Shown here: positions 4,434 to 24,948 of the stretch, piece by piece
Layout: every line of letters begins with the position of its first letter
Numbering within the stretch: position 1 is the first letter of the stretch
Source of the DNA: Polytrichum commune
Lineage: Eukaryota > Streptophyta > Polytrichopsida > Polytrichales > Polytrichaceae
Direction: 5' to 3'
NCBI GenBank assembly: GCA_950295325.1
Contig: OX485804.1
Location: forward strand, 27,340,001 to 27,404,000
DNA: 64,000 bases
Position numbers and translations under genes: made by a program
The notes under the pieces: generated by a model
The model's input: only the letters and a program-made list of their open reading frames with translations
What the model was told of the DNA's origin: nothing
Database searches by the model: none

Positions 4434-4715
4434 CAGGGTATAGTATAAGTAGCCGGTCTTGAAAACGAGTGTATAGAAATTTTATTGTAAGAAGAACACC
4501 AAATGGCTACAGAAGGGTATAGTAGCCGGTATTGATGACGAGCAGGTAGATTTTTGATTGTTAGAGAACACCAAATGGGTCCCCAAGGGCATAGTACCCG
4601 GTCCTGATGGCGAGCAGGTCGGATTCTGATTGTAAGAAGAATACCAAATGGCTACAGAAGGGTATAGTAGCCGGTCTTGGCGACCCGGTAAATTTATGAT
4701 TGAAAGAATAATAAA
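4434..4715 (+). repeat. 72-77 bp tandem repeat, four copies, upstream of gene A
   Basis: Units marked by GGGTATAGTAGCCGGT-like sequence start near 4434, 4511, 4583 and 4656, giving spacings of 77, 72 and 73 bp. The equivalent region of copy B (32345-32410) has only one degenerate unit. The array lies about 300-600 bp before the leader exon of gene A, so it could affect its promoter. Confidence 0.85.
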
Positions 4716-5089
4716 AATGACGTGCACAGTACTGTTCCAAGCACAGCTACCGGCTTGCTAAAGGCTTCCTGCAGATTGTAGGTATCGAGGGGGCACCGAA
4801 GTAAGACGATTATACTTGCAGGTATAGAGTAAGCAGTAAGACTATACTGTCTTTCTCTAGGCGGCGTATTCATGTCTCACACTCTCACATTTTGCCGATT
4901 TGTCTTCTTGATGCAGTGTAGAGCTCTTAAGTCAAAGTTCTACGTTTTGGAAATTACGTACCACATCGAGTGAAGCTTCCAGTGTAGCTTTATATGTACG
5001 CATGATAAATTCTCCAAAGGCTGAATACGGTCGTTGCACCAACTTGGTTCGGCTTGCAATCTACATACACCACCAACTCACCAGCTATA

Positions 5090-5880: not shown

Positions 5881-6396
5881 TATTGGAATCATTTTCTTCT
5901 TAGCTTGCAACCTTGTGTTGTCTTCGTCTTTCTGCGACAAGTTGGAGAGTTCTTTGTATATCTCCGTAAGGTTCTCGGCGGCAGTGCTGCTCTCAAATCT
6001 TTAATTTTTGGTAAGGACAGCCTTTGGTCACATCTTTATTGTGCCATCTCACAGGTTTCGGTCTTCTTCTCTTCTACTTCAGAAAAACTTATGTAGTAAG
6101 ATTTTATGCCGTTGTATCAGTCGACACTGCACACAATCACATACGAGCTGAGGTAAAACAGTAGTTGTACCACACCTCGAGCTCGCTCGACAGATTGTTT
6201 GATGACTTAACTACATCCAGTTCTGCATGCTCTGCACGGTGTCAAACATCAGGCGCTGGATTGTTTGTAGACCTTAAGGCTTAGACGTGTGAATTTGGTC
6301 ATCGTCTACCTTTTGTAAGGGAGTCTTCTGACGGAAATTGGATTCTCATCTCATTTTGTGCCGATTTTGACACACTGCAGATTGCAGAAAATTGCA

Positions 6397-7822
6397 ATGG
6401 TCCACGGGGACAATTACCCGCAAGTGGCAGCTGCAGCTTTCGCCCCAATGGACGATCGAAAATTTGATACAGAACCAAATTTACTCCACGTAAGCATTTT
6501 CTTAACTGCGGCAGTAAGAATCTGGCAAACGCTCCTCGAGCTGGAGTGCAACGATTACCGTGACTTCGGCGTCGAGGAATACCTCCTCAGCCTCATCGGC
6601 GCGGCAAAATTAGTGCAGGTGTATCTTGTGTACATGCGCATGGCGATCACCTTTTTCGCAGGGAGAGTCTACTGCAGGCACTCCGGAGCACTAACCGGGA
6701 TACTGGAGAACCATCTCTTGATCGGTGAACTTAACGTTGGGGGTTGGTCTGCCGAAGACTATGCGTGAGTCGCCGTTCCTTTGCAACCGAGTGTCTTGTG
6801 TATTCTGCTAACAATATCCAAGTAGCTACTGATGATACTTATCTTGCTCTTGTCTCTCAATGATGAAGTTGCTTCTGACATTTGAACAACAAGCTTAGCG
6901 CCCGACTTTGTGCTGAAATTGTTTGTTATTCGTGTTTGTGGGTTTCTCCTGCTTTCTATGTGCTACATGATGAAGATTTCAGTGTTGTCCCCCAGGATGA
7001 CACCTCCAGTCCCCTTTAAAATGACTATTTCTACATTCCTCCGACTGCTTGTGATGAACAGAAGATTTGTTCTTTCGCAAAGAGAAGAAATATGCTTGGA
7101 AAGAGAAGAGGGCATTCAGAGCATTCAATTGATACCATGTGTTTCTGTATTAGAAAAGGTTTTGCATTCCAGCATTTTTTCTAAAGTAGGTGTCAACCCA
7201 CTAGGTATTTGCTTTCACTTCAAGAAAATTCAAGAACTTTCTTAGAGTAAATCGTCTTTAGCTGAACGCTTACAATGCAACGCCAACTCCATTACTGTGC
7301 TCCTCAGAAATATCTTGATGTTCCAAACCAGCTTCTCAAGACACCGACACCGACACCTGCAGGTGCTACAGATCATAGTTTCCACCGGGGTCAGCGTCCG
7401 GCTATTGTCACCTCTTGTTTTAGGGCCATCATGTGTGCTTTCTTCCTTGTTTGTGATTGTGATTCATCTCCTGCTTTCTGTTTACTACATGGAAGATGTG
7501 ACCTCATCAGTGTTTTCCATTTTCAAAGAGTTCCGCATTCATTGACATGACTCCCATGTGTTCCCGCAGCCGCATGAGCTTCCCAGGCCAGAGAGAATTT
7601 GAGGACCGTTTCTGTGCCCGCTTTTACAAATTGTGGGAGATCACGCAGGAAATCGTGAGAATCCTCGGCAGGATTAATGTTCCGAGGGATGCAGGATTTG
7701 CAGCGCCCTTATTAGGCCCTGCTCCATCGGTAATCTCAGGCATCGAAATGCCGGATGGAGATGAGAGCGAGGATATTGATTCACCAGCAATAGCAAAATC
7801 GCACAACACTGATCCCCTTTAG
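6397..7822 (+). CDS. Duplicated small protein of unknown function, copy A
   Basis: Two exons, 6397-6764 and 7570-7822, encode 206 aa. The first exon follows a polypyrimidine-AG acceptor (CACACTGCAG), implying an intron in the 5' leader; the start is the first ATG in frame (MVHGDNYPQ). The donor is GC|GTGAGTC and the acceptor CCCGCAG|C, and the codon split across the junction gives Ala. The partner at 33481-34548 has the same intron position, phase and donor, and conserves GR(V/I)(Y/F)C..(S/G)AL near the end of exon 1 and SF.GQ at the start of exon 2. The central part looks mostly helical, with an acidic tail (GDESEDIDS). I recognise no known domain. Two diverged copies with the same exon structure support a real gene. 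Confidence 0.65.
6918..7569 (+). repeat. Duplicated intron segment in gene A
   Basis: The intron contains two related stretches, about 6918-7020 and 7440-7569, both with TGTTTGTG..TTCTCCTGCTTTCT..CTACATG. Each resembles the sequence just before exon 2 in gene B (34150-34268). A block at 7137-7200 (TGTGTTTCTGTATTAGAAAAGG) resembles sequence that lies after exon 2 in gene B (34650-34700). This suggests an internal duplication with loss of one exon 2 copy. Confidence 0.5.
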
Positions 7823-8410
7823 AACAACTGTTGTTTCTTGGTGCACAGCAAAAGTTTCTTAGTGGCCTTCTTGGCAATAAAAATTAAGCTTTTTTTTTTG
7901 TTTGCTTCCGAAAATATAGAAATATAGTTTTCTTAAAGTTTTTTGGGGGGGTTTATTAGAGAACAAATGGAATGTTATATGTTGGTATTGGGTCTCCATC
8001 GATCCATACCTTTGGTAAATTAGCCTAGTCTGGGCCTCATGAATGGCCGCAGTGTCCTCTGAAGATGCTTGAACATATATAATATGAAATATTGCTGTGA
8101 AATTTAGAGGTCTGCTCTTTCAATTGCTATCTTTTTGTATTGCTCAGAAACTGATTCAGTGTGGGCTACTGTGAGATATTAAATTTGAAATCAGGAAAGA
8201 TTAAGGGCTTGGGAGAACATCATCAAAATGAGGAGCATTCTCTAATATTCGTTGATTGGCCAACTGAGAATGTATCTGCTGATTTCTGCAGGAAGTAGTT
8301 AAATTGAAGGTATTGACAGAGAACTACAACAAGAGGGCAAATAATTGGATCCAAGAGCTTCAAAGTGAGATGGAATGCGCGTCATACTATCTTGATTGCT
8401 CAACTAAGAA
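7823..8410. other. Gene-free spacer
   Basis: AT-rich sequence after the stop codon of gene A. It has short T- and G-runs (7891-7900, 7946-7952) and no supportable ORF. Confidence 0.6.
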
Positions 8411-8413
8411 TTT

Positions 8414-8470
8414 ATGTGACCATATCTCATGTTATCAACATAAACACTATATTCGTTAAATTGAGACTTT
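8414..8470 (+). repeat. Left arm of a 56-57 bp inverted repeat (module boundary)
   Basis: The stretch starting ATGTGACCATATCTCATG and ending AACACTATATTCGTTAAATTGAGACTTT is the reverse complement of 24893-24948, apart from differences clustered in the centre (about 8432-8443). The arms are 16.5 kb apart and enclose all the palindromes and the four accessory ORF groups. They could be the terminal inverted repeats of a large element, or two oppositely oriented copies of a small dispersed repeat. I see no convincing target-site duplication. Confidence 0.75.
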
Positions 8471-8589
8471 TTGGGCATTTTGAGACATTCACATAAATAA
8501 GAACAAGGATAAATGGAACACATATTGGAGAAAGTTGTAAGATGCGAACACTTTGAAGCAGGTGTTTAGACCAAGAACCCCATAAATAA

Positions 8590-8860
8590 CTCATATTTGT
8601 GATGGTTTAGGGTGGGCAATCCAAATCTTAGACCACATTTAAGGGGAAACCTTAAAACATTCATATTATTGCACACAAAATATTAGAGCTTGTATGAATA
8701 TGGTTTAGGTAGGGCAATCCAAACCATAGATCTTATTGAAGGGTTAATATGTTAACCAATATAATATTGCATACAAAATATTCCAAACTCATATTTGTGA
8801 TGGTTTAGGTAGGGCAATCCAAACCTTAGACCATATGGAAGGGGAAATCATGTCTAACTT
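8590..8860 (+). repeat. About 100-bp tandem repeat, three copies
   Basis: The sequence GATGGTTTAGG(T/G)(A/T)GGGCAATCC followed by AAACCTTAGACC..GAAGGGG occurs near 8600, 8700 and 8798 with a spacing of about 100 bp. It lies just inside the left inverted repeat. Confidence 0.8.
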
Positions 8861-8995
8861 GTATTATTGCAAAAAAAAAACATACAAAGTGTGGCATGTA
8901 AAATGCATATCATGCTAACACCACACATGCATTGGATAGTGCGACCCAAAATGTTCTTGCCTATGGCCCAAAACCCTACGCCTACTATGGCCTAT

Positions 8996-9832
8996 CTAGC
9001 CTCGGATACTACCTCTTTTTCTTTTGCTTTTTTTTTCTTTTGCCTCTTTTTCTTTTGCCTCTTTTTCTTTTGCTGCAGCTTCTTTTGCTCGCATTGCTTC
9101 AACATTCCTGAAAATCTCCGCCCCGCGACTATAGCCATTCTTGGGGTGAACGCCATCAATAACACATTTTGTATTCCGTCGGCCGCCCGAATTATACGAC
9201 GAAGAATTCGAATACGATGAAGTGGACTGTCTTGCATTTCTGGTCATGGAGTAGAAACGCTCCAACTCGATGGACGCACTAGACCGCATAGGTTTACGGG
9301 TGGGAGCAACCTGCAACGCGTCAACGCAAGAACACATGTGTTAGTTTAGGGAGGAAGACCCAAACGTGTCACACATTCATTTTTTAAGTGTAAAATGATT
9401 GTAATGCGCGGATAACCATGTTTTTTTTGGGGGGGGGGGGTTCACCTTGTCACCGGGGGCGTTCCCGTCGGAGTTGGCGAGGAGGGGCAAGGCATCCCGC
9501 AAAGGAATAGGAAGGGTTCCACTCTTCGTAGGCCGAGCGTCCATCCGCAGCCGCCGTTGAGGTGTACTACTGCCGCCGGGCCGAGAGGGGGATGTCCGGA
9601 CGCATTTGCGATTTATGCCTTTGAGCGGTGACGGGGACGCAGATCGCCGGAAGATTTGCTTGGGTGGGGGGCTATCGACGACGCCGGCGTCAAGAGGCTC
9701 CTTGGAGTAGTCGATGGTTGACGCGGCGTCGTAAACGGTCTCGTAGAAGAAGCTCCCCAAGTCTGACTCGCTGACGACGTCAATCGAGGGCTCCAAACGC
9801 TGGAGCCAAAATTGGAACAAAACAAAACCCAA
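8996..9832 (-). CDS. Small Ser/Pro- and Lys/Glu-rich protein, two exons
   Basis: The minus-strand exons 9832-9446 and 9310-8996 join in phase 0 and encode 233 aa. The donor is GACAAG|GTGAAC and the acceptor GCGTTGCAG|G. The first half is acidic, then rich in Ser/Pro/Arg; the C-terminus is a charged helix of repeated KEKEAKE units ending in KKSKRKR, which may serve as a nuclear localisation signal. I recognise no known domain. The start at 9832 is uncertain, because a good acceptor (TGGCTCCAG) at about 9800 could instead make this the continuation of an upstream exon. It lies 110 bp beyond the stop of the HAD exon on the same strand, so it may be a separate gene or the tail of an alternative transcript. 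Confidence 0.5.
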
Positions 9833-9942
9833 GGAAAAGGGGGGAGATAGAGCGCGTGAAAATCAAGATACATATGAAGCGTAAATTACACAAAATGGGT
9901 AGGCGCATATACATACACACACATACAAACACACGTACTGTC

Positions 9943-10755
9943 TCAAATGAGCTTGTTAAATTTCGCGTGAGATAACAACTCTCTGTACAAATGGTCTCGT
10001 GGATCCAAGTATCTCTCGCCTATGGGATTATTCCTAACAAAATTGTTTACGGGAAGTCCGCTTCCCCAGAGCGCCTGGAGGTATTTACTAAGGTCTAACA
10101 AAAATCGGTCCCGGACCTTCTCGACCGTCCACGTAGGGCACACTATGAAGTTGGCCGTCGGGTTCAACATGTTCTTTGCGGCGCTGTCGTCCACCATGAG
10201 CGTGTTCTCGCGGGTGGGGCGGACGTCGTAGGGGACGCCTATCAAGGACGGTCGCTGGTCCCAAAAAATGGGCTTCAAGACCTTGAGGTATTGGGGGGAA
10301 GCGGGGTTGTTTGGTTTTTTGACGACTTTGCCGTCCTGTGTGTACAATATTCTACAGGCTTCCTGTGCTAGGACCATGCAGGGGGGCTCGATGCCCTTGA
10401 AGATGAACTCCACGACCGCATTGGTGTTCTCGGCCGTCATGGAGCTCCACACGACCACCCACCATCGTTGTTGGGCGATCTGGAGGAAGGTCCGAAGCCA
10501 CGGGCGGAGGTGAACTAGCTTGCTCTTTATGAACGTGGGCGGCCCGTCGTAATTAGCGTCCTCGGGCTTGCAAAAGGGCACTGTGGGGGCCCTAGGGCAA
10601 TGAACGCACTGCACGAGGACACCGTTCAGGTCTAACACCAGGAATCGTTTCTTCGGCAGCGGGGGCGGGGCGGGTAAAACCGGGGGCGCCGCCGCGCTGC
10701 CCTCTCCGCTCCTTGGGGAAGAGCGTCGGGGAGCCGCTACGCTATGCTCCGAGCC
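9943..10755 (-). CDS. FCP1/NLI-type HAD domain protein exon (partial or terminal exon)
   Basis: The open exon runs from an acceptor (CGTATCCGCAG) at 10756-10758 to a TGA at 9943, about 270 codons. After a Pro/Ala-rich lead it shows the HAD fold: motif I LVLDLNGVLV (about residues 39-48), VVWSSMTAENTNAVV (about 101-115) and the acidic motif LMVDDSAAKNML (about 185). The order matches FCP1 homology (NIF) domains. In classic FCP/SCP phosphatases motif I is DxDxT; here the second Asp is Asn and the Thr position is Val. As I recall, a group of plant FCP1-like proteins has D-V/L-N-G-L/V, so this may be a family trait, and activity is doubtful. No ATG precedes motif I within the exon. It is therefore probably a downstream exon, possibly of the methyltransferase-like gene, whose exon ending at 11258 would join it in phase. 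Confidence 0.7.
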   Translation of the reverse strand, partial: GSEHSVAAPRRSSPRSGEGSAAAPPVLPAPPPLPKKRFLVLDLNGVLVQCVHCPRAPTVPFCKPEDANYDGPPTFIKSKLVHLRPWLRTFLQIAQQRWWVVVWSSMTAENTNAVVEFIFKGIEPPCMVLAQEACRILYTQDGKVVKKPNNPASPQYLKVLKPIFWDQRPSLIGVPYDVRPTRENTLMVDDSAAKNMLNPTANFIVCPTWTVEKVRDRFLLDLSKYLQALWGSGLPVNNFVRNNPIGERYLDPRDHLYRELLSHAKFNKLI

Positions 10756-11214
10756 CTGCGGATACGAGCGAGAGAAAACGGGGGCGACTTATGTCATGCT
10801 ATGTCCAAACGAAGCATTAAGGAAACGAGCGTTCTCGGTGCAAACACAAAAGCATTTGATTCATTTTGGAGGGGGTGCAACAAGGGATACAAGGGATACA
10901 AGAGCATACAAAATACATTCAAACACAATATACAAGTATATAGGAGTCAAAAATGGTGATTATATTATATACAATGCTCTATGTACATCTTGATTGGGGG
11001 AGCCGCGTTGAACGATGCGTTCAAACTAGCCTACTTCTACATCTAGAAAAAATTGAAGAGACGGGCCGCCGTGATGAAGACTTCGTTGCAAAGCCGGGGG
11101 TAGGTGGACGAACGAATGGTCGCTGGGGGTGATGAAGGGCGCGAGTGCCGGGGGGGGCCTAAGTTCGTCCTAGCTAGGGGACACGACCAAGGCAAGAAGT
11201 CAAAGACCCAGGAA

Positions 11215-11236
11215 GTTTGGGTCGGCCGACCCAAAC
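11215..11236. repeat. Isolated 22-bp palindrome (centre GC)
   Basis: Arms GTTTGGGTCG and CGACCCAAAC around GC. It lies just past the stop of the methyltransferase-like ORF, or inside its possible last intron. Two further copies lie within the last coding exon, at 11519 (centre GC) and 11588 (centre GA). Confidence 0.95.
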
Positions 11237-11245
11237 TGAGTGGGG

Positions 11246-14200
11246 TCAGTGCATTACCTCGCCTTGGTCGTGCCTTGACGACGTTGATGCCGGCATCGCG
11301 TGCGCTGCCCCACCTCTGTCACCGCCGCCTCCGACGACGCCGTCAGCCGCAACCTGCTCCTGCAAAGGCTGACTGTCAGGCCTTTGTCCCAACCCAACCT
11401 CCGCATGCGCATCATGCATTGGTTCATCGACTGGGTTAGGAGTAGAGGTATCACCAGGCCCTTGCGGGCCTTCAACATCTAGCATAGGCTCGTCGACCGG
11501 GGTCTGATGGGGGACGGGGTTTGGGTCGGCCGACCCAAACCCTGCTGCTTGGCGAGGGTCGCTCTGCGACGCTGCAACGTCGGCACTGTTTGGGTCGGAC
11601 GACCCAAACATGTGGGGGTCGTCCCGCTGGTGGTGTGGGGGCAAGAGGATGGGAGGCCGGAGCGGGGGGGGTGCCAACGAGCTGGACGCTCCGGGGACGC
11701 GCCAAAGGTTTGGATCATCCACCTGCTGCACAGGCGCGTAAGGACGGGCGTGCGGCTGCAGCAAATCCGCGAAGCTGAAGGAATGCTCCAACGCCGGCCG
11801 CGGGCGGATATCCTGTGGAGGGAAGCCTGCGGGCAAGTGAGGGAATGAACTCGGGGGAGCCATCACCAATCCCTGCGCCAGCATGCCCTGGATCACTTGC
11901 GTGATGAGGTCCGCTTGGGACGGAGTTTGGGACATCGCCCTTTGCCGCTCCTGCTCCAACAGGAGAGCCCTCAACTCCGCGACTTCGTTGCGGACAGAGG
12001 GTTCCTTGGCGGCAGCCCTCTGCAGTCGCACACGCTGCTCCTCGTCTCGGAGCATTTTTGCGTTCGCCTCCTCCACGGTGAGGACCTCCGGTTTCACCCT
12101 CACATTCCCGGCGAACGCTCTGGGGGAGGCAGGATCAGACCTCAGCTTCTTGGCGAGTTCCATGTCGTCCTCGTCCTCGGAGCTTATTGCGATCGTCTCC
12201 TCCACCGCATAGTCCCCGTACAGCTTCTTCCCCTTCATCCTTCTACGCTCCCTGAAGGTGGCCGTCGCGTCCCTCGAGTACATATCCTTGGCGTCGTCCA
12301 CCGTCAACGCGGGCACCAGCCTGCTCTGCGGCGTGGCAGGCCGCATGGCCTTCTTCCGCTGAGGGGCCTCGGATTCTTGAGTGAATCCTGTTGCCCCTTC
12401 CTCCACCTCCCCCTCCACTTTCTCTGCTTCCTCCTCCGCCTCCTCCTCGTCTTCCTCCCCCTCCTCCCCAACCCTGCCACCTGCTCCCATAGACGGATTG
12501 CCCGGATGCAACCCGATGAGCGGCTTTGGCAATTGAACGGGGGCCCGCATGGCGAATTCACCCGGGTTGATTCGCCTCGCAATATCCAAAGGATTCTCGC
12601 CCCCCTCGACGATCTCTTCGACGTAGGATCCGGGTATCCAGTCGAGGATGTCCATTCTCTTGGCCAGCGCCTTTTGGGTCCTGTAGAATTGAACATCGGC
12701 ATCCTCTACATAGGAGTAGATGTTCAACCCAGACATCTGCACAATCAAAATCAATACTATTAGTAACACCAAATGAACATATAATGGAAAATGACTTCCA
12801 AACAAAATAAGAATAGTTAGTTTGGGTCGCTCGACCCAAACTATGCATGGCCCTAGTTTGGGTCGCTCGACCCAAACTATGCATGGCCCTAGTTTGGGTC
12901 GCTCGACCCAAACTATGCATGGCCCTAGTTTGGGTCGCTCGACCCAAACTGTGCATGCCCCTAGTTTGGGTCGTTCGACCCAAACCGAACGTATAGGGAC
13001 TTCTGGGTTTTCTGCTTACCATGGCTGCAAAAATCGGTTTGGACCCCCCGAAAACGTTGAAGATGCAGTCCCCTCTCTTCGTGAGGGTCCTCATCATCCG
13101 CAGGTAGAACTCCATGCGCAGCTCATCCGCGGGGTAGTTGGCGTACTTCGCCTCGTCATATAAGCTCCTGCTGGTACCCAACCCTTCTTGGACTTGGAAG
13201 AGCTTTTCCATCCTGGCTATGGGATGGTTTGGCACCTTAAGCAGCTCAGCTTTGTACACGAAGTACAAACACAGCACGTTGACGATCTTCGTCTTCTTGT
13301 CTTTCAGCGTGCTGTACGCCCCCTCCGCCGGTGCAGCAACGTAGTGAGATTTCGAGACGGCATACTCCGGCTGCAATTTGCGCACGATCTCGTAAACCTG
13401 CTCTGCCCTTCTGTCCTCGACAATCCAGAGCCAGACGTCGACCTCCCTGAATTTGGGGCTGGCGTAGTCCACGAACTTCGACAAGAAATGATCGTAAAAA
13501 GGGGTGCTCATAGTCCCCTCGAATGAGGCTCCAGGGATGTTCCTGAAGTCTATCATTCCGAAGGGGAAGCGGTCCCCGGCTCTAGTCCTGATCGCCTTCC
13601 TTGACTCAGAACCCGGCCAACCCTGGATCCTGAGAGGTTCGACAGTGACCATGTTGAATTGCGCATCGCCTTCGAAACTGACGATCTTCTTCTCCTTTAT
13701 GAAGTTGGAGAAGGCCCGCACTGAGTGTTCGGGAAGCGCCCGGTTCCTCCCCCCCTTCACGAGCTTGGATCTGAGGAAGTCGTCTCCCGCCTCCCTCATG
13801 AGTGCCGCCATGGACGCACTGGTAAACTTATATTCGGCTTTGAAGGCCCTCCAGTGCGCCTCGTCGACCTCTCCGTCCACGATGAGCTTCTTCTCTGGCA
13901 CAAGCTTGTGCAGCTCCTGGACGATGGTCGTCTTCTTCTTCCTGTTCTCCGTCCATTCCTTCATTGTGTAGCATGAAGGGACGAAGATCTTGGGTTTGTT
14001 GAAGACGATCTTAGGGTGGACCCAGCATCTCTTCGCCGTCGTCTCCACGTGTAGGATGTGGGACGCCGCTTTTCCCATCTCTGTCTCAGAGAGACCTTGA
14101 AGCGCTCTGAAGAACTCCCTCACCAGAGGCTTCATTTGCTTGAAGCGCGTAGTCTGGTTGAAGAGCATGCCGGTGTCGGGGTCCATGAGGTCCCCCGTCT

Positions 14201-15940
14201 CGTGTTTTTCAAAAACACTCTTCCATCTTGCCCATACGGAATCGGACGCTGTGATCAAATAGATTTCTCCTCTCAGCTCGTTATACTTTTTCTGCTTGTG
14301 GCTAGCATTGTCGATCGAGGAGAATTTATTGATCATTTGATATTTGAAGTCCTGCACAGGAAGACATTAGCACATGTATCACAACACATAATGGAAAAAC
14401 AAATGCAACAGCAGTTTGGGTCGAACGACCCAAACTATGAACCTGGCGAAAACATCTTAACAATTTCAGAGTTTGGGTCGACCGACCCAAACTATGAACC
14501 TGGGGACAATATCAAAATAATTTCAGAGTTTGGGTCGACCGACCCAAACTATCAACCTGGCAATGACAACAAAATAATGTAGGAGTTTGGGTCGATCGAC
14601 CCAAACATACTCACCTCCCATTTGGGGTTCTTGTCTTTAGCATTCTCCCTTTCCTTGGGAGGCCTTCCATAAAACTCCCACACCTCCCTCGAGGCCATGA
14701 TGTTTCTGATCCACGATGTCTGATAGGCCCTCTTTTTGTTCCCCATGTTGAAGAACCTGGAGATGTCGCTGAGGACCGTCTCGTTGTCCGACCAAACCAC
14801 CAAAGCCTTCCAAACTTTTAGCTTCTCCTTCTGGTTGTTCGGGTCGTCCCACTCGGTCATTAGCTGGATTTTTTTCGAGGCCTCCACACTGTGCTGCCCG
14901 TCAATCAGCCAGAAGTCTCCTTTAGAGATTGCCGGCCACATCTCAGGCGTCGGCATTCTTTTCAGCCCTTGTGGCATGACAACAATTGTCTGCCTGTCGT
15001 CCTTGAACTGCCCGCCCAAGATTTGAGCGACCATCCAGTCGACGTAGGCGTCCTCCTTGGCTCGGACGCACTTCTCTGGTGGCGCAAGGTGGCACTGCGC
15101 AATGTTGACCTCGAATTTGAAGTCCCTGCCCATGAAGAAGCAGTGCAGGCATTTTGTCTCGAAGTTGTTGTTTATTTTTTGTATTTCGCCTGCATCCACC
15201 TCTTGGCCAGGCTTCGGCATCCGGAGCTCCGGGGAAACAGGCTCGTCAGTCATCCCCGATGACTCTCTTCCCCTCTTGGAAGGGGTCGTCTGACGGCTTC
15301 CTGATGGCGTTGGCGTCTCGCTGTCAGCCGGCGTTGTTGTAGTGCTCGTCCGTCTCGAGTCTGCAGGGACCGCCCGCGGTTTCCTCACAGTTTGTGGTCT
15401 TGAGGACCCTGCGCCTTCTTCCGTCGTTGCCTTCCGCCTCACAGGCTGCTGCGTCTTGGGTTTGCTTTGCAGCGCCTTGTTGAGAACCGTGATAGCCTGT
15501 TTTAACTTCGTAAACCTGCTCGCAACCTTCGTGTTCGTTACACTACCATCTATGAATATGGCCTCCGGTTTTATGGTTTCAGGGTCGACGCAAGTCTCCT
15601 TGGCGTACAGGGGGTCGAAGGGCTCGGAGAACTGGTGCATGAACATGTGGACGTTCTGCACGGCGGAGTTCTCCAGTATCACGTCTACGTAGTCCCCGAG
15701 AGACTGGACGGACGCAACCTCCCATCCCGTCAGCGTTGCCCAGGTGTGCTGCTCGTGGGTCCCCACCTTCACCACGAATAGCAGCTTGAACATGGATGCC
15801 TTCACCACCTGAACGGACCATGCCAAAACGACGCCATCTTTTGGGACGTAAGAATCGTCCTGTGGAGTTTCATACTCCTGCCAAAGGTGGTATGGCGCGA
15901 GCATGAACCACCTTTCACCTGGTCTCTTTTTAGGGGCCAT
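11246..15940 (-). CDS. ParB/DGQHR-like plus degenerate amino-methyltransferase-like protein
   Basis: Three coding exons, 15940-14615, 14351-13020 and 12736-11246, join in phase 0 and give 1,382 aa. Donors are GGGAG|GTGAGT and CATG|GTAAGC; acceptors are TCCTGTGCAG and GATTGTGCAG. Start: ATGGCCCCTAAA right after an acceptor, so a leader exon lies upstream. Exon 1 has a Ser/Thr/Pro-rich linker and then FWLIDGQHSVEASKK (about residues 343-358), resembling the DGQHR/DGNHR box of ParB-like domains. Exon 2 has a region like motif IV (MIDFRNIPG, about 710; usual D/N-P-P-Y lost). Near its end it has GDCIFNVFGGSKPIFAAM, like motif I F-x-G-G-S, continued in exon 3 by SGLNIYSYVEDADVQF. The order ParB, motif IV, motif I matches beta-class N4/N6 methyltransferases of bacteria and phages. 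The lost catalytic motif suggests binding rather than catalysis. The tail is acidic, helical and Pro-rich. GAG|GTAATG at 11258 could extend it. All three introns carry palindrome arrays. Confidence 0.65.
12820..12985. repeat. Palindrome array 1: five copies, 36-bp unit, in an intron
   Basis: Palindromes start at 12820, 12856, 12892, 12928 and 12964, exactly 36 bp apart. The centres are CT four times and then TT. Spacers read TATGCATGGCCCTA with one variant. The array lies inside the 283-bp intron 13019-12737 of the methyltransferase-like gene and fills more than half of it. Because 36 is a multiple of three, spurious ORFs run through it. Confidence 0.97.
14414..14606. repeat. Palindrome array 2: four copies, 57-bp unit, in an intron
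   Basis: Palindromes start at 14414, 14471, 14528 and 14585, exactly 57 bp apart, with centres AA, AC, AC and AT. The array lies in the intron 14614-14352. Its last copy ends 8 bp from the GTGAGT donor, so splice-site recognition occurs right beside a potential hairpin. Confidence 0.97.
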
Positions 15941-17026
15941 CTGCAATCCAAGAAATCGAAACTGTGAGTTTCGGTCGATCGACCCAAAGTATTACAATGT
16001 GCATTTAACATTTGGAGGATTGACCCAAACATTTACTTAATTTTCAAAGTCGTTTTAAAAGATCTTTTAGATTTTAAAGTGTGGTTTAGGTGGTCACCCT
16101 GTAATGTTTGGGTCGAGCGACCCAAGCATGATGAGGCTGCAAATTTAGGTATCTCAACACATTCATTTCAGACTGCAATGTTTGGGTCGAACGACCCAAA
16201 CAATTACTTAATTTTGGAAGTTCTTTTATATTTTACAATGTGGTTTAGTTCTTCTCCCTGTAATGTTTGGGTCGAGCGACCCAAATATGTTAGGCTGCAA
16301 ATTTAGGTAGCTCAACCCATTCATTTCAGACTGCAATGTTTGGGTCGAACGACCCAAACAATTACTTAATTTTCAAATTTCTCTTTTATTTTACAATATG
16401 CTTTAGTTCTTCTCCCTGTAATGTTTGGGTCGACCGACCGAAACATGTTAGGTTGCAAATTTAGGTAGCTCAACCCAATCATTTCAGACTGCAATGTTTG
16501 GGTCGAACGACCCAAACATTCACTTAATTTTCAAAGTTCTTTTATATTTTACAATGTGGTTTAGTTCTTCTCCCTGTAATGTTTGGGTCGAGCGACCCAA
16601 ACATGTTAGGCTGCAAATTTAGGTACCTCAACCCAGTCATTTCAGTCTGCAATGTTTGGGTCGAACGACCCAAACATTTACTTAATTTTTGAAGTTCTTT
16701 TATATTTTACAATGTGGTTTAGTTCTTCTCCCTGTAATGTTTGGGTCGAGCGACCCAAACATAATGAGGCTCCAATGTTTGGGTCGCTCGACCCAAACAA
16801 GAGGCTGCAATGTTTGGGTCGAACGACCCAAACATTTAGTTCATTTTAGGCTGCAATTCAAATATTTATTATATTTTAATATGAGTTTGGGTCGTCTCCC
16901 CAAACTACTGTGTTTCCAGATGCATGTTTAATGCTTGGGCAACATATACAATGCTTATGCATTGTATATGTAACAGGAACCTAAAGGGAATGATGCAAAT
17001 TGTGTGCACTGATGCAAATTGCTTAC
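15941..17026 (-). other. Leader intron of the methyltransferase-like gene, about 1.1 kb
   Basis: The acceptor TTGGATTGCAG lies directly before the start codon at 15940. Upstream on the minus strand GACAAG|GTAAGC at 17027/17026 is a strong donor candidate. The intron so defined holds palindrome array 3, a degenerate palindrome at 15968 and a degenerate one at 16885. The pairing of these two splice sites is inferred. Confidence 0.5.
16106..16833. repeat. Palindrome array 3: 11 copies, 158-bp unit with two palindromes each
   Basis: Copies start at 16106, 16180, 16265, 16338, 16423, 16496, 16581, 16654, 16739, 16777 and 16812. The main unit is 158-159 bp and contains two palindromes 73-74 bp apart. 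Centres alternate AG (AC at 16423) and AA. The last three copies are closer together and have centres AG, CT and AA. Copies at 16106 and 16423 have one base changed in the right arm. Spacers are near-identical between units, so the array grew by tandem duplication of the pair. Confidence 0.96.
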
Positions 17027-17710
17027 CTTGTCTTTCAAACTCTTGAAAGCTGCTCTCACAATCTGCTTCTTACAACCAGACTCAGAAACTCTGTTGTGGC
17101 ACTAAAGAACAACTCTCACAAAGATCTCAGAAACACAATGAATCTCTCAAGCACCCTAAAACTTTCTCACAAACCCCCTGATTCTTGCAAACTCAGGCCT
17201 AATTTGAAAGACCTCTACCTTTCTATCACACTCGACCGTGCTCACTTCTACTCAACCTAAAATCACTCCATGCATGAATTTTACAAAACAAGTAAGGAGT
17301 TCAACACAATAAACCGCTCCGAACTCACTCAAAGCTAACACTCTGGACCAAGAAGAGAGAATAAGAAGAGGAAGACAATAACACGAGGAATAGAATGAGA
17401 GAAGAGGAGGAGAAGCATCAGAGAGGAGGAGAGGAATGAAGGAGAAAGAAGAATGAAGGGAAGCGGCGCGACCAAGACAAAAGCAAAAGGTGCAAGAGGA
17501 AGCGCTTGGCGCGGCGCTATGGAAAGCGGCGGCGGCGTTTCCAAGAGCGGCGCTTGGCGCGGAGGAAGAGAGGAAGAAAAAGAGAGAAAGAAAAAAGAGG
17601 AGGGGAGAGAAGGAGAGAGCGGAAGGGGTCACCCTAAACCCTCGAATCCGGGCCATTAGATTGCGCCGGGCCCATCAACGGCTCAGAAGCCTCGCGGGCC
17701 AACACCTTGC
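17027..17710 (-). promoter_or_regulatory. Likely leader exon and promoter of the methyltransferase-like gene
   Basis: Reading on the minus strand, a GC-rich stretch at 17660-17700 has a TGGGCC element (site II-like, at about 17668-17673) and a telo-box-like AGGGTTTAGGGT (17630-17641). These are common in plant housekeeping promoters. They are followed by a long pyrimidine-rich tract (17350-17630) and a possible leader exon ending at the GTAAGC donor at 17026. The minus-strand ORF within the CT tract is low-complexity and I do not call it coding. Confidence 0.35.
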
Positions 17711-17754
17711 CAGGTGTCGACACCTCCTTGGTTTAGGTGGTTGCCCGCGAGGCT
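17688..17754. repeat. Nested GC-rich palindrome
   Basis: A perfect 12-bp inverted repeat, AGCCTCGCGGGC at 17688-17699 and GCCCGCGAGGCT at 17743-17754, flanks a perfect 14-bp palindrome AGGTGTCGACACCT at 17712-17725. Together they could form a cruciform at the probable promoter. Confidence 0.85.
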
Positions 17755-17879
17755 TGTGGTGTTGACACCTGCCACCCTAGGGAGATTGCCTTCCTGGTTG
17801 TCCTTGCCCCTAGGTGCGGGACATAGGAGGGCCGGCGCCTCTCTTGGCCGCCCGGCCCCGGCCTTCTAACCCGCTATTC

Positions 17880-19220
17880 ATTAGCGGCAATTCAATACCA
17901 GTCAAAAACCTACGTGGACTAAGGTATTCCACAAAATTAACACCATCACCAACTCATATTTTAATGGTGTTCAATTGAATGATCACCCGTTGGAATTGAT
18001 AACATCGTTGAATGTAGCCATTATCGTTTTGGTGTATGAATAATGTAATTTATGGAATCATATGAGAGTGTTACAAAGTCTAAGAGGAGTAAGTCATAAT
18101 TATATTGCAATCCACAAAGGCAATTACACGGTGCAATAATATAAATATGGTAACCATTCACATGGTTAACAGTTTAGGATTATGTATTGTAATTTATATG
18201 ATGGTTGTTGGTAGAGGACAATGCTCTAGTCTATAATGGATACCCTAACAAGTAGCATTAGAGTGAACATTAATATATGTACTTAGAAGTTCACATTTGA
18301 AGTACATGGGAGAAACAAATGATTACAAATGTATCTACTGCAACCCCATGGAGTTCACATATCATATGAAGTCATTTAAACATTCAGTTTGATGTTTGAT
18401 GATGCCTGAACCCTAAACCCTAAACCTTAAACAACACAAACCATAACTGGATGGCACATAGGTCAAATGACATGGGCCTTGGTGCTTGTAGTTTCCAATA
18501 CAAATGTATATTGTCATCACAACATCCTAATTCACAAACGTGAAAGATGGATGTGTGGTTTTTCACGAATGAACGCACTAAAGGAAATAAACGATATTGT
18601 GCTCACAAGTAGGTGATACAATATTAACCTATAACCTTGTCACCTGGTAAGAAAAGCATAAGAACTAGATTATAATGGATAGGATGTTGTTCATGTTAAC
18701 ATGTTATTTGGAATAGTGAAATATTATATATTAATTTAAAGTAGATTTCATGTTGTGAATGATATGAGGACATACCTTTTGAACTTTGCATGTTTTGCTC
18801 ACACACATTGGTAGAGTTCAAGGGACTTCACGATAGGTTCAAACATCCTTGGAAGATTGAACGTGCCAAATGTCATTTGTGGTTTAGGGTTCCATTAATG
18901 ACTTCCACATAGGTACTAGGTTATTGTCACACTTGGAGTCTTGAGGATGAAGCAATATTGGGTGCACACATTACAACACAACATATGTTCTTTTAATTAG
19001 CAGAAATTGAAAGTTGGCCAAATTATTCAAGTTTGTCATGGCATTAATTATTTGTTTTCAAAATATAAGTCCTCATGTGAGAGTCTAAATAATAGCATTA
19101 ACTATTATATTTAGTGACTTTTAGTATATGAAGTTTTATAATACATGCACATCTTTTGTCAATATATTGTTTGAAATATACCATAATGTTTGACTACAAG
19201 TAGAGTAAAACCCCTTAATA
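17880..19220. other. Gene-free AT-rich stretch
   Basis: No supportable ORF. A short telomere-like CCCTAAACCCTAAACC lies at 18411-18426. Otherwise I see only AT-rich sequence between the methyltransferase-like promoter and the 78-bp array. Confidence 0.6.
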
Positions 19221-19396
19221 GATATAATCTTACATATTGTCATAGGGTTATTGGTATTTAGTGTATGCGTTCATATGTAGTGTATCAAAACCTTTATATC
19301 CTTTTTAGTTATATGATAGTTAGTGTTTGATACACTTAAAACGAACGCATACACTTCCCATTACTAACCCTATGAGAGTAAGTAACATTAAATGTA
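19221..19396. repeat. Hairpin element (MITE-like)
   Basis: The left arm, 19221-19292, carries CATAGGGTTA..AGTGTATGCGTTC..GTGTATCAAA. It is the imperfect reverse complement of the right arm, 19324-19396, with a short AT-rich loop of about 30 bp. Size and structure fit a non-autonomous hairpin transposon. I see no clear target-site duplication. Confidence 0.7.
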
Positions 19397-19995
19397 AACT
19401 CAAACACTAAATATCCACTATGGTGATATATGGAAGTTACATATAGGGATTTAGTATTAGTAAGGATGTGAGAAAAATATACAACAATGATAAAAGGAGA
19501 AAGGAGATGGCAATAGGGAAGGTGGTGGTGTATTCATGTATAAAACTAATTATGAAAGAGTTGAAGAATAGTGTTGACCAAGTTAGGGTGGTAACAACTT
19601 TAAATATATGTTGAATTATTCATTTGGTGGTTGGGGCAACGAAGAGCCAAGCTAAATATACATTCTCTATTATTGACAAGAAGCGGGAAATTGAGTCAGA
19701 AGGTTTGAATTAACATCCAAAGGAGACCAGGTGGGAAAGGCATCCAAGAGGATGCCCAAAGCGGAGGCGGGTAGTATAAAGAGCCCAACCCCCCCAAATG
19801 CTGGTTCTTTCTTTCATGTCCCAATCCTGAGATTGCTGCAAGCTCTCTAAGTTGGAGCTGTAATACACGGTTTGTATACGCTTCCATTCATGAGCAGCTA
19901 ATTACAACAAGCATCTATGAGTTCAGTTGTCCCAAATAGGTTATAAATAGATTAATAGAGCATCACCCGAATAAATAGGCGGATTTTGCGGAATT

Positions 19996-21110
19996 GTTTG
20001 GGTCGGTCGACCCAAACCCAGCCTTACAGTGTGGGTGCTCTCTGTATTGAGCCAGAACCCATCCTGCCTCAAGGTTTGGGTCGATCGACCCAAACCCAGC
20101 CCTACAGTGTGGGTGCTCACTGTTGTGAGCCTAAACCCATCCTGCCTCATGGTTTGGGTCGATCGACCCAAACCCAGCCCTACAGTGTGGGTGCTCACTG
20201 TTGTGAGCCTGAACCCATCCTGCCTCATGGTTTGGGTCGATCGACCCAAACCCAGCCCTACAGTGTGGGTGCTCTCTGTTGTGAGCCTGAACCCATCCTG
20301 CCTCATGGTTTGGGTCGATCGACCCAAACCCAGCCTTACAGTGTGGGTGCTCTTTGTTGTGAGCCTGAACCCATCCTGCCTCAAGGTTTGGGTCGATCGA
20401 CCCAAACCCAACCCTACAGTGTGGGTGCTCTCTGTTGTGAGCCTGAACCCATCCTGCCTCATGGTTTGGGTCGATCGACCCAAACCCAGCCCTACAGTGT
20501 GGGTGCTCTCTGTTGTGAGCCTGAACCCATCCTGCCTCATGGTTTGGGTCGATCGACCCAAACCCAGCCCTACAGTGTGGGTGCTCTCTGTTGTGAGCCT
20601 GAACCCATCCTGCCTCATGGTTTGGGTCGATCGACCCAAACCCAGCCTTACAGTGTGGGTGCTCTTTGTTGTGAGCCTGAACCCATCCTGCCTCAAGGTT
20701 TGGGTCGATCGACCCAAACCCAGCCCTACAGTGTGGGTGCTCATTGTTGTGAGCCTGAACCCATCCTGCCTCATGGTTTGGGTCGATCGACCCAAACCTA
20801 GCCCTACAGTGTGGGTGCTCATTGTTGTGAGCCTGAACCCATCCTGCAAAAAGGTTTGGGTCGCTCGACCCAAACCCAGCCCTCTAAGTGTGGGTGCTCC
20901 CTGTCGTGACCCAAAACCCATTCTGCCAAAAGGTTTGGGTCGCTCGACCCAAACCCAGCCCCTAAGTGTGGATGCTGTCTGTAGTGAGCCTAAACCCATC
21001 CTGCCAGAAGGTTTGGGTCGCTCGACCCAAATCCAGCGCCTAAGTGTGGGTGCTCTCTGTATTGAGCCTGAACCCATCCTCCCAAAAGGTTTGGGTCGCT
21101 CGACCCAAAC
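19996..21110. repeat. Palindrome array 4: 15 copies, 78-bp unit
   Basis: Palindromes start at 19996, 20074, 20152, 20230, 20308, 20386, 20464, 20542, 20620, 20698, 20776, 20854, 20933, 21011 and 21089. Spacing is 78 bp with a single 79-bp step. The centre is GT in the first copy, AT in the next ten and CT in the last four. Spacers carry CAGCCCTACAGTGTGGGTGC and then CTGAACCCATCCTGCC with few changes, and the CT units share a distinct spacer variant. The 78-bp period keeps several frames open on both strands. The array ends about 210 bp before the start of the transposase-like gene. Confidence 0.97.
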
Positions 21111-21323
21111 CCAGCCTCTAAGTGTGGTTGGGATCTGGGTGCCGGTGTGGCCACTGGCCTTCCGAAACCTTTACAAGCCCAATGGCATAGCAGTCATATG
21201 AACTTGTATGAGCACTGAGTATTTGCAATTTTGTTTATATATGATGGTTTTTTTGTTCTTCGATTTGAACCTACAATTTTTGTGATTTTAAGACAATGTT
21301 CAATGTTCATGTGTGTAGGCAGA

Positions 21324-24300
21324 ATGGATGGGTTTAGTGAAATAGGGGATTGGTCATCTGATGACATGGCCACTTGGCCATCTGCATCTGATGATGACCT
21401 AGACATTGTCGGGGAGGCTACTATGGCTGACAGTGCGGATGAAGATCATTTGGATTTACCTTCGTCTTCCGTACCGCAGTGTCCCATTGTTGAATGTACG
21501 GGACTTTCAAGGGCTTCGTGGGTGAATTTGGAGGTGATACTTCTTAACGATAGTGGAGTTGTTGTGGCGGAGGGGATTTGCCGTAACACCCATCCGCAAG
21601 ATTGCATTGATGAAAACCCGCTTGGCACTGAGGACGTTGGGGTTGTCATATTGGAGTCGGTCATTCATTCCGAGGTGGATCCCACTCATAGGTTCTCCCT
21701 CCGCAGGTGGCCATTGAGGAATGTCACAATTGATGGAATTAGCTTGCGTGAACATGAGCAACGACACATGCAAATCGAAAAGGAGGTGCAATCAAACATG
21801 CGGCCGCGCAAGGGTCAAAGAAAGTACGATACATTGGCACGTCCTGCTCCGTCTGCAACTGATTGTAAACGTCAAAGGTTGCTCGGGGAGGAGTCCATTA
21901 GAGAAGTTGCCACAAAGGATTGTTGTGTGCATCGTTGTTGCCAATTGTTTCCAAGGGATAAATTGAAGGTCATCCGCGAAGAAATGTGGCTTGGAGATTT
22001 CCGTCTAAGATCCACAAGAAAACTTGATGTCCATAGGGCGATACATGTGAATGGGACGGGTCGCAAGGTCATCACCATTGAAAGCATAGACGTGTGTTGT
22101 AAGGCATGGTACACCATTCACGGTGTGTCGAAATCGGACTTTTATAGACAAGCTGCTTATGCCAAGGAAGGCCGCCGGTCCCGTCACCATGGTAACGTGG
22201 GTTTAAAGAAGCCTAGGGAAGCAACAAGGCAAGCAACGGCCACTCTAGCAACCATCATTGTCCCTCTTGCCGATGCAATGCCGCACAAAACACGCACACT
22301 CACAACCGGTGAAAAGGTTGTGGAGAAAGTTCTTCCCACAGGCACAAAATGGAAAGACATATTGTTGGACGTTAATGCAGTTGGCGAGAAGATTGGGTTG
22401 GAGCCAATTTCATTGTCAAAATTGAGTGCAATCAAGAAACAAAACTTTAGCGAATACATTACAAAAAGACGAGGGGACAAATTTGCCAGGTGCTCTAATT
22501 GCGAGAAGTTGAAGCGCCTCCGGGATGCACACACGATGGGCACCGAGTCATATGCAGCGCATCAATTGAACTATTTCAAGCACGTAAACATGCAAGAGGC
22601 ACACCGTAATGATTACTACACAAATAGAGCTTTGTCCATCTCCAGGCCCTTGGAGGTTCTTACGGTCATCCATGACAAAATGGACCATGCCAAAACAGCC
22701 TCCCCATGTTTTGCAAATCGAATCAAGGCCACGGATGGGTTTTTCAAGTTGCCTGTATCGATTACAGGTGAACTTCGAAACAATGTCATGACATACCCTA
22801 AATGTTGTTGTATTTTATTCCGTGATGTACTGGAGAACATGGATTCCTTCATAATGGTTTATTCATACATAGATGCTAATCACGTTGGGTTGGCATTGCA
22901 GGAATGATTGCACATGGACACGGTGATGTCAAATTTGCTCATTATGCTCTTGATTTGTATCCAGCGGATTCAAACCACACGATAGGATCATTTGCAAGGC
23001 TTTTACGTGATTTAGAGAAACCACCAGCCTATTCTTCAGGATTGTTATTTGAGAACACGGGTTCAACACCTTTATATGAAGCGGTGTTGGATGGAAAAGA
23101 TGTATGCTTGCATTCGTTGCCCGAGCCACCCAATGAACCCGTGATTGCCAAGAAGTTGCCTCCAACTTTGCGTGTCCAATTGGACAATTGTGCCAAGGAC
23201 AATAAAAACAGATATGTATTTGCATATTGGTCGTTGTTGGTTGCGAAAGGCATTTTCAAGGAGGTTTTTGTGTCCTTCCTATTGGTAGGCCACACGCACG
23301 ATGATATTGATGCATCTTTTGGGCGGTGGAGCATGAAGTTGCGGGAGGAGGATTTCCCTACAATTCCATTATTGATGAAGTCGTACATGGATTTGGAGAA
23401 CATTCCCGTCATCCCCCATATGATTGAAGAGGTGCCAGACTTCAAGGCATTTATAGAACCTTATATTCGAAGTGGAGCTCACCGATTGATCGGGCATACG
23501 AAGGCACAACAATTCCGCTTCTATATGCGTGACGATGGTGTCCCGGCCATGCAATACAAGTTGTTGTGCACGTCACAAGACTGGAGCCCGCCGGAGGGTC
23601 TTCTTGTGTGGCGCGTGGATGCGGATGGAAAGACCATGTTACCGGATGGGGAGCCTAGGCCTTGTAAGCCAATAGCCATGAAGAATTTGGAGGATATTTT
23701 GAAAGGTATATCAGGCTTCATACAATATTGGGAGAGTTTGAAAATAGCGGATGTTGGCGGATCATGTTGGCATCGTTATGGGAGTTGGATACATTATTGG
23801 ACACGTGTTCGTGCCGCCTTGGCAAACCTCCACCAAGATAGCCCTCATACTTTGAGGCATGGATTTTGGCCACAAACACGAGTCGATGTACAAGCTTCAG
23901 AGCCTAGTCTTTTGGGAAATGGAGAGGTTCGAGAGGAGTTTGATGTGGACGACCATTACGTGGGGCCTGCTAGTAGTCGTCCCCCACCATCTTTCCGCAT
24001 TGCAGTGGATTGTCATGAAGGTTATATGCTCATTTTGCGTCCTAGAGACGAGACATATGCGAAGCCAGTGTGGGTGGCAAGAGCTTTGTCCAATCCCAAT
24101 TTTGTAACTTCCAGCCCTCATTTTCGACAAATACAAGTGGAGTACTATCGACCGACAGCAAGGAATGAAGATGTGATTCGGCATTATACAGGCTGGGATA
24201 CAAACCCTAACTTTCGGTGGAAGGTGGATTCTGAGCACGGTCCATCTTGGGTAGATACAGATTCCATATTCATAGCATGGAAACCACGGAAACACCATAG

Positions 24301-24370
24301 TGGATCAGTGTCCATCCCTCAAAAGTACATAACTTTTGCAAAAGACAACCTTACTCGGATTGCAGAATAA
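21324..24370 (+). CDS. DUF7869-like (transposase-like) protein, two exons
   Basis: Exons 21324-22767 and 22902-24370 join as ACA-G|GA across CAG|GTGAAC and GCATTGCAG, giving 970 aa. The start is ATGGATGGG; an AG just upstream (TGTGTGTAG) could be an acceptor for a leader exon. The N-terminus is acidic (SDDD..DEDHLD). A basic middle region follows, with Cys clusters (CCVHRCC about residue 200, CSNCEK about 390). The core has IHDKMDHAKT, GMIAHGHGD, QLDNCAKDNKNRYV and LLVGHTHDDIDASFG. These resemble the RNase H-like core of DUF7869 proteins, where the Asp of LDN and the Asp residues after GHTH are plausible metal ligands. The last ~130 residues look like a small beta domain (YMLILRP..VWVARAL..VEYYRPT), perhaps BAH- or Tudor-like. 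The family is widespread in streptophytes and looks transposon-derived. The ORF is intact. It is oriented opposite to the methyltransferase-like gene. Confidence 0.75.
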
Positions 24371-24880
24371 GCAACCCACGTTGAATGAGAAGTTGGTAGG
24401 ATTGTGTTAGCATGATTATAGTTTAATACGTAATTATAGCAATATAAATTACACATATGTGTGCTCTTCAAAATTGGGGCAGAGTTTGGGTAGAACTTAC
24501 GAATACTATATTGTTTGGAGTTGGATGAATATCCATTTACTATATTTCAAGCTGCAATTGAAGTTCATCTTATTATTATGCTTGGGACTATATTCTCGAA
24601 TGAAGAAACATGCATTTATTACATGCACTTTGTATGTTGCAATGTCTATATTCTATTGAACATGCTAATAATAGAAATCATTTTATATATATTTTTGGGT
24701 GAAACTTGTTTGAAGTGCTCTACCCAATGTGTTTTTGTTGATGAAGTTGGTGTCGAGTGCTCTACCATATGTGCTTATGTCCGCACATCATAGATTTGGG
24801 ATATTAGAACATATAATATAATTGAGATTGTTGACAATATAGTTTCGGGCCTCTTCAAGTTCTTTGATCCATATATTAAT

Positions 24881-24902
24881 TTGAGACTAGAGAAAGTCTC
24901 AA
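24881..24902. repeat. Short hairpin at the right module boundary
   Basis: TTGAGACT and AGTCTCAA flank a 6-base loop. It overlaps the inner end of the right inverted repeat arm; the left arm lacks this exact hairpin. Confidence 0.8.
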
Positions 24903-24948
24903 TTTAACGAATATAGTGTTCATAATATGTCATGAGATATGGTCACAT
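24893..24948 (-). repeat. Right arm of the 56-57 bp inverted repeat
   Basis: Reverse complement of 8414-8470 with about 85% identity. It lies 520 bp past the stop of the transposase-like gene, much as the left arm lies about 525 bp past the stop of the small Lys-rich gene. This gives the module nearly symmetrical margins. Confidence 0.75.

Follow-up and report, generated by a model that had tools for sequence, protein, structure and literature searches.

The genome of Polytrichum commune contains a 22-bp palindrome, GTTTGGGTCG-NN-CGACCCAAAC, which was found in a stretch of 64,000 nucleotides (assembly GCA_950295325.1, contig OX485804.1, positions 27,340,001 to 27,404,000 of the forward strand; hereafter the window) and belongs to a DNA transposon of a family designated F1. 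Our results favor the view that this palindrome is a selected, family-specific DNA site and not a self-spreading repeat or an RNA hairpin. We further propose, with about even confidence, that it is a cis-acting address tag of the transposon family, which would be read by a protein of the element itself in a VANC-like form of anti-silencing. In the window, 39 matches with at most 3 mismatches (34 of them exact) were found, all within 11215-21110, and the rest of the 64 kb contains none at the same threshold; the number expected by chance, as estimated from 100 shuffles, is 0. The copies form four tandem arrays with periods of 36, 57, 158, and 78 bp, whose units are unlike one another (Tandem Repeats Finder), together with three single copies at 11215, 11519, and 11588. 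These data agree with the original prediction, made from the sequence alone, that about 40 copies are confined to one module and sit in four arrays with unrelated spacers as well as singly. Perfect palindromes of the 10+2+10 layout number three outside the transposon (1-8442 and 25001-64000), all of them composed of A/T only.

The module 11215-21110 is real, but it is part of a bigger mobile element with a CATA duplication, whose ends the original prediction had not noticed. This element is a DNA transposon of 16,478 bp, the limits of which were read against other copies. Its features are as follows.

8439..8442 (left) and 24921-24924 (right): target-site duplication CATA, from comparison with other copies
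8443..24920: DNA transposon F1, with 96.9-99.5% identical pieces in copy A (~C1:610757-628840)
8443..8470, plus strand: left terminal inverted repeat AACACTATATTCGTTAAATTGAGACTTT; its 21-mer is found 345 + 356 times in the genome as exact matches
24893..24920, minus strand: right terminal inverted repeat, from inverted-repeat search and copy comparison
9943..10788, minus strand: NLI-interacting-factor-like phosphatase gene, without palindromes (Pfam NIF, E 4.2e-15)
11215..11236: single palindrome 3' of the accessory stop codon (pattern search)
11246..12736, minus strand: accessory gene exon 3, 496 amino acids, the fastest-evolving exon (splice sites by reading)
11519..11540: palindrome within coding exon 3, encoding FGSADPN (pattern search)
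11588..11609: palindrome within coding exon 3, encoding FGSSDPN (pattern search)
12818..12985: 36-bp array with 5 palindromes in intron 2 (Tandem Repeats Finder)
13020..14351, minus strand: accessory gene exon 2, with a resemblance to methyltransferases seen by reading only and no profile match
14413..14606: 57-bp array with 4 palindromes in intron 1 (Tandem Repeats Finder)
14615..15940, minus strand: accessory gene exon 1, containing LIDGQHSVEASKK, ParB-like by reading only, without a significant profile match
15968..16833: 12 palindromes in a 158-bp array and nearby sites, immediately upstream of the accessory ATG
19996..21127: 78-bp array with 15 palindromes, upstream of the transposase gene
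21324..24370, plus strand: putative transposase gene, two exons by reading (Pfam DUF7869, E 2.1e-43)

The 39 palindromes are distributed over five compartments, that is, the 3' end of the accessory gene (three, two of which lie in coding exon 3 and one after the stop), intron 2 (five), intron 1 (four), the region upstream of the accessory ATG (12), and the region upstream of the transposase gene (15). The phosphatase gene and the transposase exons contain none. The accessory gene runs on the minus strand from 15940 to 11246 in three exons, and its spliced product has 1,382 amino acids; the splice sites were assigned by reading (GTGAGT...CAG and GTAAGC...CAG, phase 0), and the GT and AG of intron 2 are retained in five aligned copies. 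A phosphatase is also present in the related family F6 (below), with 44% identity to the one carried by F1.

Next, the position of the palindrome in the genome was examined. The exact form occurs 9,231 times in the 408-Mb genome, and 13,295 sites are found when up to 2 mismatches are allowed. Among the first 100 listed of the 9,231 exact sites, which reach as far as 2.16 Mb on C1, three F1 elements account for 77 and two copies of a second transposon family, F2, for the other 23. The F1 and F2 spans make up 108 kb of these 2,160 kb, and they include copy C of F1, for which a single terminus was observed, and an F2 span that was inferred across inserted DNA. An even spread over the genome, which the original prediction had named as an outcome that would contradict it, is therefore not what these sites display. 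Further listed sites up to C1:3.97 Mb (at most 2 mismatches) are near F2 or F1 genes or ends, and the remaining genomic sites were counted without placement. Exact matches to the F1 palindrome were not found in prokaryote and viral collections, and a literature search with the two 10-letter arms returned, at the top ranks, papers carrying one arm each, on subjects that are unrelated by title.

The two central bases were described in the original prediction as variable, and the dinucleotides that it listed are correct; the center does not vary freely, however, with pyrimidine-purine (YR) centers in 38 of the 9,231 exact genomic sites, all of them CA/TG, and TA or CG in none. A free central dinucleotide is thereby ruled out for F1 and F2. 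Across the window element and the fetched loci, 184 exact sites give 368 half-sites, in which the base adjoining the arm is A in 220, G in 88, C in 33, and T in 27, so that A or G continues 308/368 half-sites, although the sites behind these counts are non-independent owing to tandem duplication. In the F6 palindromes described below, the center is CA/TG or CG in 18/28, showing that the avoidance of YR is a preference of the F1 motif and no general rule. A degenerate relative of the palindrome occurs in subterminal repeats of about 98 bp at 8588-8847 (GTTTAGGTAGGGCAATCCAAAC matched 9 times in the fetched copies), and these are possibly decayed or ancestral sites.

The arms are strongly constrained between F1 subfamilies. 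The F1 copies fall into two subfamilies, W/A (W being the window element) and B/C/D/F, whose left halves share about 76-79% identity. At three single-copy sites, compared between W, A and B, D, F, 0/60 arm positions differ between the subfamilies versus 133/490 other positions (Fisher p 2.9e-8); among the center positions, 2/6 differ. One arm position varies inside a subfamily, and copy C, which stands outside the 0/60 count, has one different arm base too. The arrays differ in spacing between the subfamilies: before the transposase gene the period is 78 bp in W/A, whereas in B/D/F it is mostly 56 and 64 bp; the corresponding values are 73/85 bp versus 32/39 bp upstream of the accessory gene and 57 bp versus 45-49 bp in intron 1; in intron 2 it is 36 bp in both subfamilies, where the spacers have diverged and the arms are the same.

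The coding parts were compared between W and D/F. Exon 1 of the accessory gene is saturated at synonymous sites (nonsynonymous divergence, dN, 0.08), exon 2 has a synonymous divergence (dS) of 1.6 with dN/dS of 0.05, and exon 3 has dN/dS of 0.18; the corresponding values are 0.12 for the second transposase exon (dS 0.31) and 0.19 for the phosphatase. Copy D carries single in-frame stops in two of the compared stretches and F carries none, and copies B and C were excluded from the alignments of exon 1 (in-frame stops) and exon 2 (broken tblastn matches). As judged from these alignments, the accessory gene is under purifying selection. The arms are thus conserved in surroundings whose synonymous sites are saturated or nearly so, including within a coding exon. 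We also observed that the accessory half (11246-15940; dS 1.6 or saturated in exons 1-2) is much more diverged between the subfamilies than the transposase half (22880-24370; dS 0.31), and because of this difference the element has the look of a mosaic made by exchange between transposons.

Related families carry palindromes of their own. A Pfam DUF7869 search gave 150 scored matches, and 20 kb were fetched around three of them, which represent the families F4, F5, and F6 by one locus each. The F6 locus (C5:31802600-31822599) has the inverted ends AACACTATATTCG and the duplication TTTA, and its gene order is the same as that of F1, with identities of 35, 37, and 26% for the accessory exons and 55 and 64% for the transposase exons. 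It contains 28 copies (at most 3 mismatches) of a different palindrome, ATTTACGAACG-NN-CGTTCGTAAAT, and 0 F1 palindromes; these copies lie near the accessory 3' end (3), in intron 2 (2), in intron 1 (2), upstream of the accessory gene (9), and upstream of the transposase gene (12). No blastn similarity was found between W and F6 in the array regions and introns. In F5, whose transposase is 65-66% identical, 6 copies of GGTTTACGGACG-NN-CGTCCGTAAACC stand upstream of the transposase gene; the stretch also has 14 F1 palindromes, 12 in a neighboring piece with F1-type ends and 2 at the stretch edge. The F4 locus (36-48% identical) has 13 copies of GCCCACGGGTG-NN-CACCCGTGGGC; seven of them lie at an end of the fetched stretch, five immediately precede the transposase open reading frame (ORF), and one stands between transposase ORFs. 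Each of the six full F1 copies has 26-40 palindromes of its own and 0 of the other families, and cross-family counts are 0 in F4 and F6 as well. The F1 palindrome is thus a member of a group of palindromes that are each specific to a family, a point that the original prediction had not noticed either. Plant-type AAACCCT repeats are present in the F4 and F6 stretches.

The original prediction had left two choices, the first being whether the palindrome is selected or itself spreads. Selection is favored here, because the arms are fixed beside near-saturated silent sites and because F6 keeps another palindrome in the same compartments; self-spreading is disfavored. In the second choice, between a protein site and an RNA hairpin, the protein site is favored, because arm changes are scarcely compensated (80 imperfect sites with at most 4 mismatches, some of them distant relatives, yielded 1 symmetric pair) and because the center base is biased.

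The family F2 makes this picture more complex. An F2 example at ~C1:2151944-2164288 has inverted ends of about 60 bp and a flanking repeat, AGTTGGCATG, of 9 or 10 bp; Mutator-type elements produce a target duplication of about 9 bp. By reading, F2 is Mutator-like: its transposase ORF has 114 scored matches, and a SWIM-like motif was seen below the cut-off (E 0.076). In this family, the F1 palindrome is repeated in 32-bp arrays, which are located between two transposase ORFs and immediately before an ORF that has a ParB-like DGNHR motif. A downstream exon (L018:1774-2232) matches DNA methyltransferases of the phage collection PHROG (E 5e-5 and 1.1e-4) and has no Pfam match. The F1 proteins, DUF7869 included, gave no significant match in the 23-kb F2 locus (E up to 10), the best hit (E 0.002) being translated palindromes. 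The expectation that palindromes cluster with DUF7869 and ParB/methyltransferase-like genes holds in F1; in F2, whose transposase is Mutator-like by reading, these F1 genes were not detected. When F1 was aligned with F2/F3 by hhalign, 17 columns around DGQH/DGNH were aligned, with a probability of 0.4%.

F2 has a second palindrome, CCCTRTRCGTTAACGYAYAGGG, with 570 exact genomic copies, and the 50 listed are at or near F2 copies. Its array (L015:5223-6368, that is, C1:2157722-2158867) consists of 64-bp units with a near-perfect 28-bp palindrome, the core of which is the sequence with 570 exact copies. Another Mutator-like family, F3, is related to F2, and its ParB-like ORF is 38-39% identical; neither the F1 palindrome nor the second F2 palindrome is present in the three F3 loci. 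In these loci (L020-L022), long arrays of about 85-bp units with the conserved core TGGCCTCATTTCANGTTAGAATCTAA lie around the ParB-like ORF.

As for the F1 element itself, the inverted repeats span 31 nucleotides at 97% identity (8440-8470 paired with 24893-24923), and the element ends read AACACTATATTCG...CGAATATAGTGTT. All seven copies whose two ends were read are flanked by a 4-bp duplication (W CATA, A ACTT, B ATAA, D TATA, F AAAA, N1 ATGT, and N2 CACT); one end of copy C is beyond the fetched stretch, and this copy was left out of the count. With a DUF7869 protein inside terminal inverted repeats and a target duplication, F1 is a DUF7869-bearing DNA transposon, and this protein and the 4-bp duplications set it apart from Mutator-like elements. 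A literature search for DUF7869 returned no papers. The DUF7869 exon has 86 scored genomic matches, all at least 96% identical (96-100%), out of 1,864 candidates, and the protein of accessory exon 1 has 95 at 91-100%; these gene copy numbers are lower bounds. Three exon 1 copies with the same scores lie about 84 kb apart (C3:10615605, 10699380, and 10783222), a spacing that suggests a tandem segmental duplication containing F1 elements. Two short derivatives, N1 and N2, have intact ends and 4-bp duplications with 0 palindromes within 3 mismatches; the N1 deletion junction is spanned by 1/40 scored matches, i.e., a single place, and the search was confined to N1. The window insertion sits within an older inverted repeat, GTGACCATATCTCATG ... 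CATGAGATATGGTCAC (8416-8431 and 24931-24946).

Based on these results, we propose that a sequence-specific protein, acting as a dimer, would recognize the palindrome as a symmetric site. The reader would be encoded by the element, since a long, symmetric, family-specific word is selected in the element's own introns and upstream regions, and it is most likely the 1,382-amino-acid product of the accessory gene. Bound densely in introns and promoters, this reader may protect the expression of the element genes from host silencing, in the manner of VANC in VANDAL elements. Because the tags differ between families, each family would act on its own kin only, and F2, bearing the F1 tag, may respond in trans to the F1 protein. 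The use of the F1 word by F2 suggests one transposon using the address of another.

In a fuller form, which seems to us possible but doubtful, this would be a system independent of VANC, in which the ParB-like/methyltransferase-like protein of the DUF7869 clade loads on the family palindromes and shields the element from silencing, address and protein co-diverge, and the Mutator-like F2, having acquired a copy of the F1 address, is served in trans, with addresses being traded or pirated. In the accessory gene, a ParB-like IDGQH motif is seen in exon 1, and exons 2-3 resemble, by reading, the terminal part of an N6/N4-type methyltransferase. The ParB-like label given in the original prediction is based on the short DGQH motif and found no backing in profile searches, with no significant ParB match for exon 1 in scans of Pfam, NCBIfam, and PHROGs. 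Exon 2 and the joined exon 2-3 part gave no methyltransferase profile match, and solved structures likewise support neither assignment.

Several observations weigh against the address-tag proposal. The motif does not strictly follow the gene, as F2 has the F1 palindrome and no F1 protein was found there. No accessory-gene homologue was detected in the 20-kb F4 stretch, in which the element ends are undefined, and this may speak against strict pairing. The accessory protein has no recognized DNA-binding domain and no significant profile match, and AlphaFold models of exon 1 and exon 2, built from 4-row alignments, have predicted local distance difference test scores of 30.4 and 31.8, too low to use. 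In addition, the transposase also differs between F1 and F6 and may be the reader instead, which makes it the main rival for this role.

That rival leads to an explanation in which the palindromes are binding sites of the element's transposase, either of the subterminal type or for promoter autoregulation. It would suit the placement of the palindromes, which precede the transposase gene in each of the families F1, F4, F5, and F6 and are also seen between transposase ORFs, both in F2 and at one F4 site, the palindrome of the same design in all four DUF7869 families examined, and the presence of a palindrome in F4, where the accessory homologue was not found. We nevertheless regard it as unlikely: the sites keep clear of the termini, with distances of 2.8 and 3.8 kb between the two ends and the nearest exact sites in the window, the accessory gene owns four of the five compartments, the F1 palindrome in F2 stands beside a Mutator-like transposase, and both short derivatives lack palindromes despite their intact ends, although the N1 junction was found at one place only. 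A host-encoded regulator (an activator, insulator, or repressor) recruited by transposons has a slightly smaller chance still. Such a factor would account for one motif common to two unrelated transposon families, but it does not predict that F6 is without the F1 motif and has another one in the same compartments, and 0 of the first 100 listed sites lie outside F1/F2 spans.

The remaining two explanations concern the repeat itself. For the view that the inverted repeats act as RNA hairpins (splicing, small-RNA, or RNA-stability elements), it can be said that the introns and exon 3 would be transcribed and that every site is able to fold back. However, the sequence itself is kept within families with the single compensated pair mentioned above, the largest two of the arrays precede genes, and the would-be loop base is strongly biased. 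The near absence of compensation rules the hairpin out as the leading explanation, and we consider it improbable in any role. Even less probable is a palindrome that is itself mobile, a homing or spreading sequence, for which the several separate sites per element (exon included), the 9,231 copies, and the occurrence in two unrelated transposons could be cited. Against it, the F1 palindrome is absent (at most 3 mismatches) from one F6, one F4, and three F3 loci that were fetched, none of the first 100 listed sites is in host DNA, and array growth fits the tandem duplication of larger units, while the aligned single-copy regions show no case in which a 22-bp unit was cleanly inserted or removed.

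Among known systems, the subterminal repeats of Spm/En and Ac are multiple short sites that are bound by an element protein and adjoin the termini. The F1 palindromes resemble them in being many short sites, but they are located in introns and upstream of genes, not at termini. Bacterial ParB-parS partition resembles F1 in having palindromic sites and a protein with a ParB-like DGQH motif; however, this motif is too short to demonstrate homology, and a partition role is implausible for a dispersed chromosomal transposon.

The closest parallel to the proposed address tag is VANC of the Arabidopsis VANDAL transposons (PMC5735166, PMC10398659). According to PMC5735166, VANC21 binds the 9-bp YAGTATTAY in vitro, VANC causes methylation loss, and VANDAL21 motifs are dense in non-coding parts, often as varying tandem repeats in introns of VANC21/VANB21 and upstream of VANA21. 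Both systems have a short transposon-specific motif that is dense, often tandem, and located in accessory introns and upstream of the transposase gene, a motif that differs among related families, and an accessory gene that diverges faster than the transposase. F1 follows this pattern in its dense family-specific motif in non-coding parts, with the exception of 2/39 sites in coding exon 3, and in having related families with different motifs (six full copies of F1 and one locus each of F4, F5, and F6). On the other hand, the described VANC21 motif is 9 bp long and non-palindromic, whereas the motifs here are 22-26 bp and dyad-symmetric, and VANDALs are Mutator-like, whereas F1 carries 4-bp duplications and encodes a DUF7869 protein. 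Anti-silencing is proposed here by analogy, with no VANC homology detected in F1: the VANC domains DUF1985/DUF287 were not found in Pfam scans of 9 window ORFs (E<=1), exon 1 (E<=10), and part of exons 2-3 (E<=10), which leaves room for distant homology. A second parallel is found in fungi, where, according to PMC12730594, DNA transposons of unrelated superfamilies share a TET/JBP dioxygenase counter-silencing gene by transfer. Unrelated superfamilies with one common counter-silencing module would thus be the likeness; the enzyme gene is common there, whereas a DNA address is common to F1 and F2 here, with no detectable common protein.

In our literature searches for sequence-specific anti-silencing by transposons, VANC was the only such system found. 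The four natural family/motif pairs (F1, F4, F5, and F6) make the code between motif and protein directly testable, and long, exact, family-specific addresses would serve targeted epigenome editing. One address common to two unrelated transposons would be an unusual case of molecular piracy. If the proposed role is true, the F1 palindrome would represent a second such system, with long palindromic addresses, indicating that anti-silencing systems arise repeatedly.

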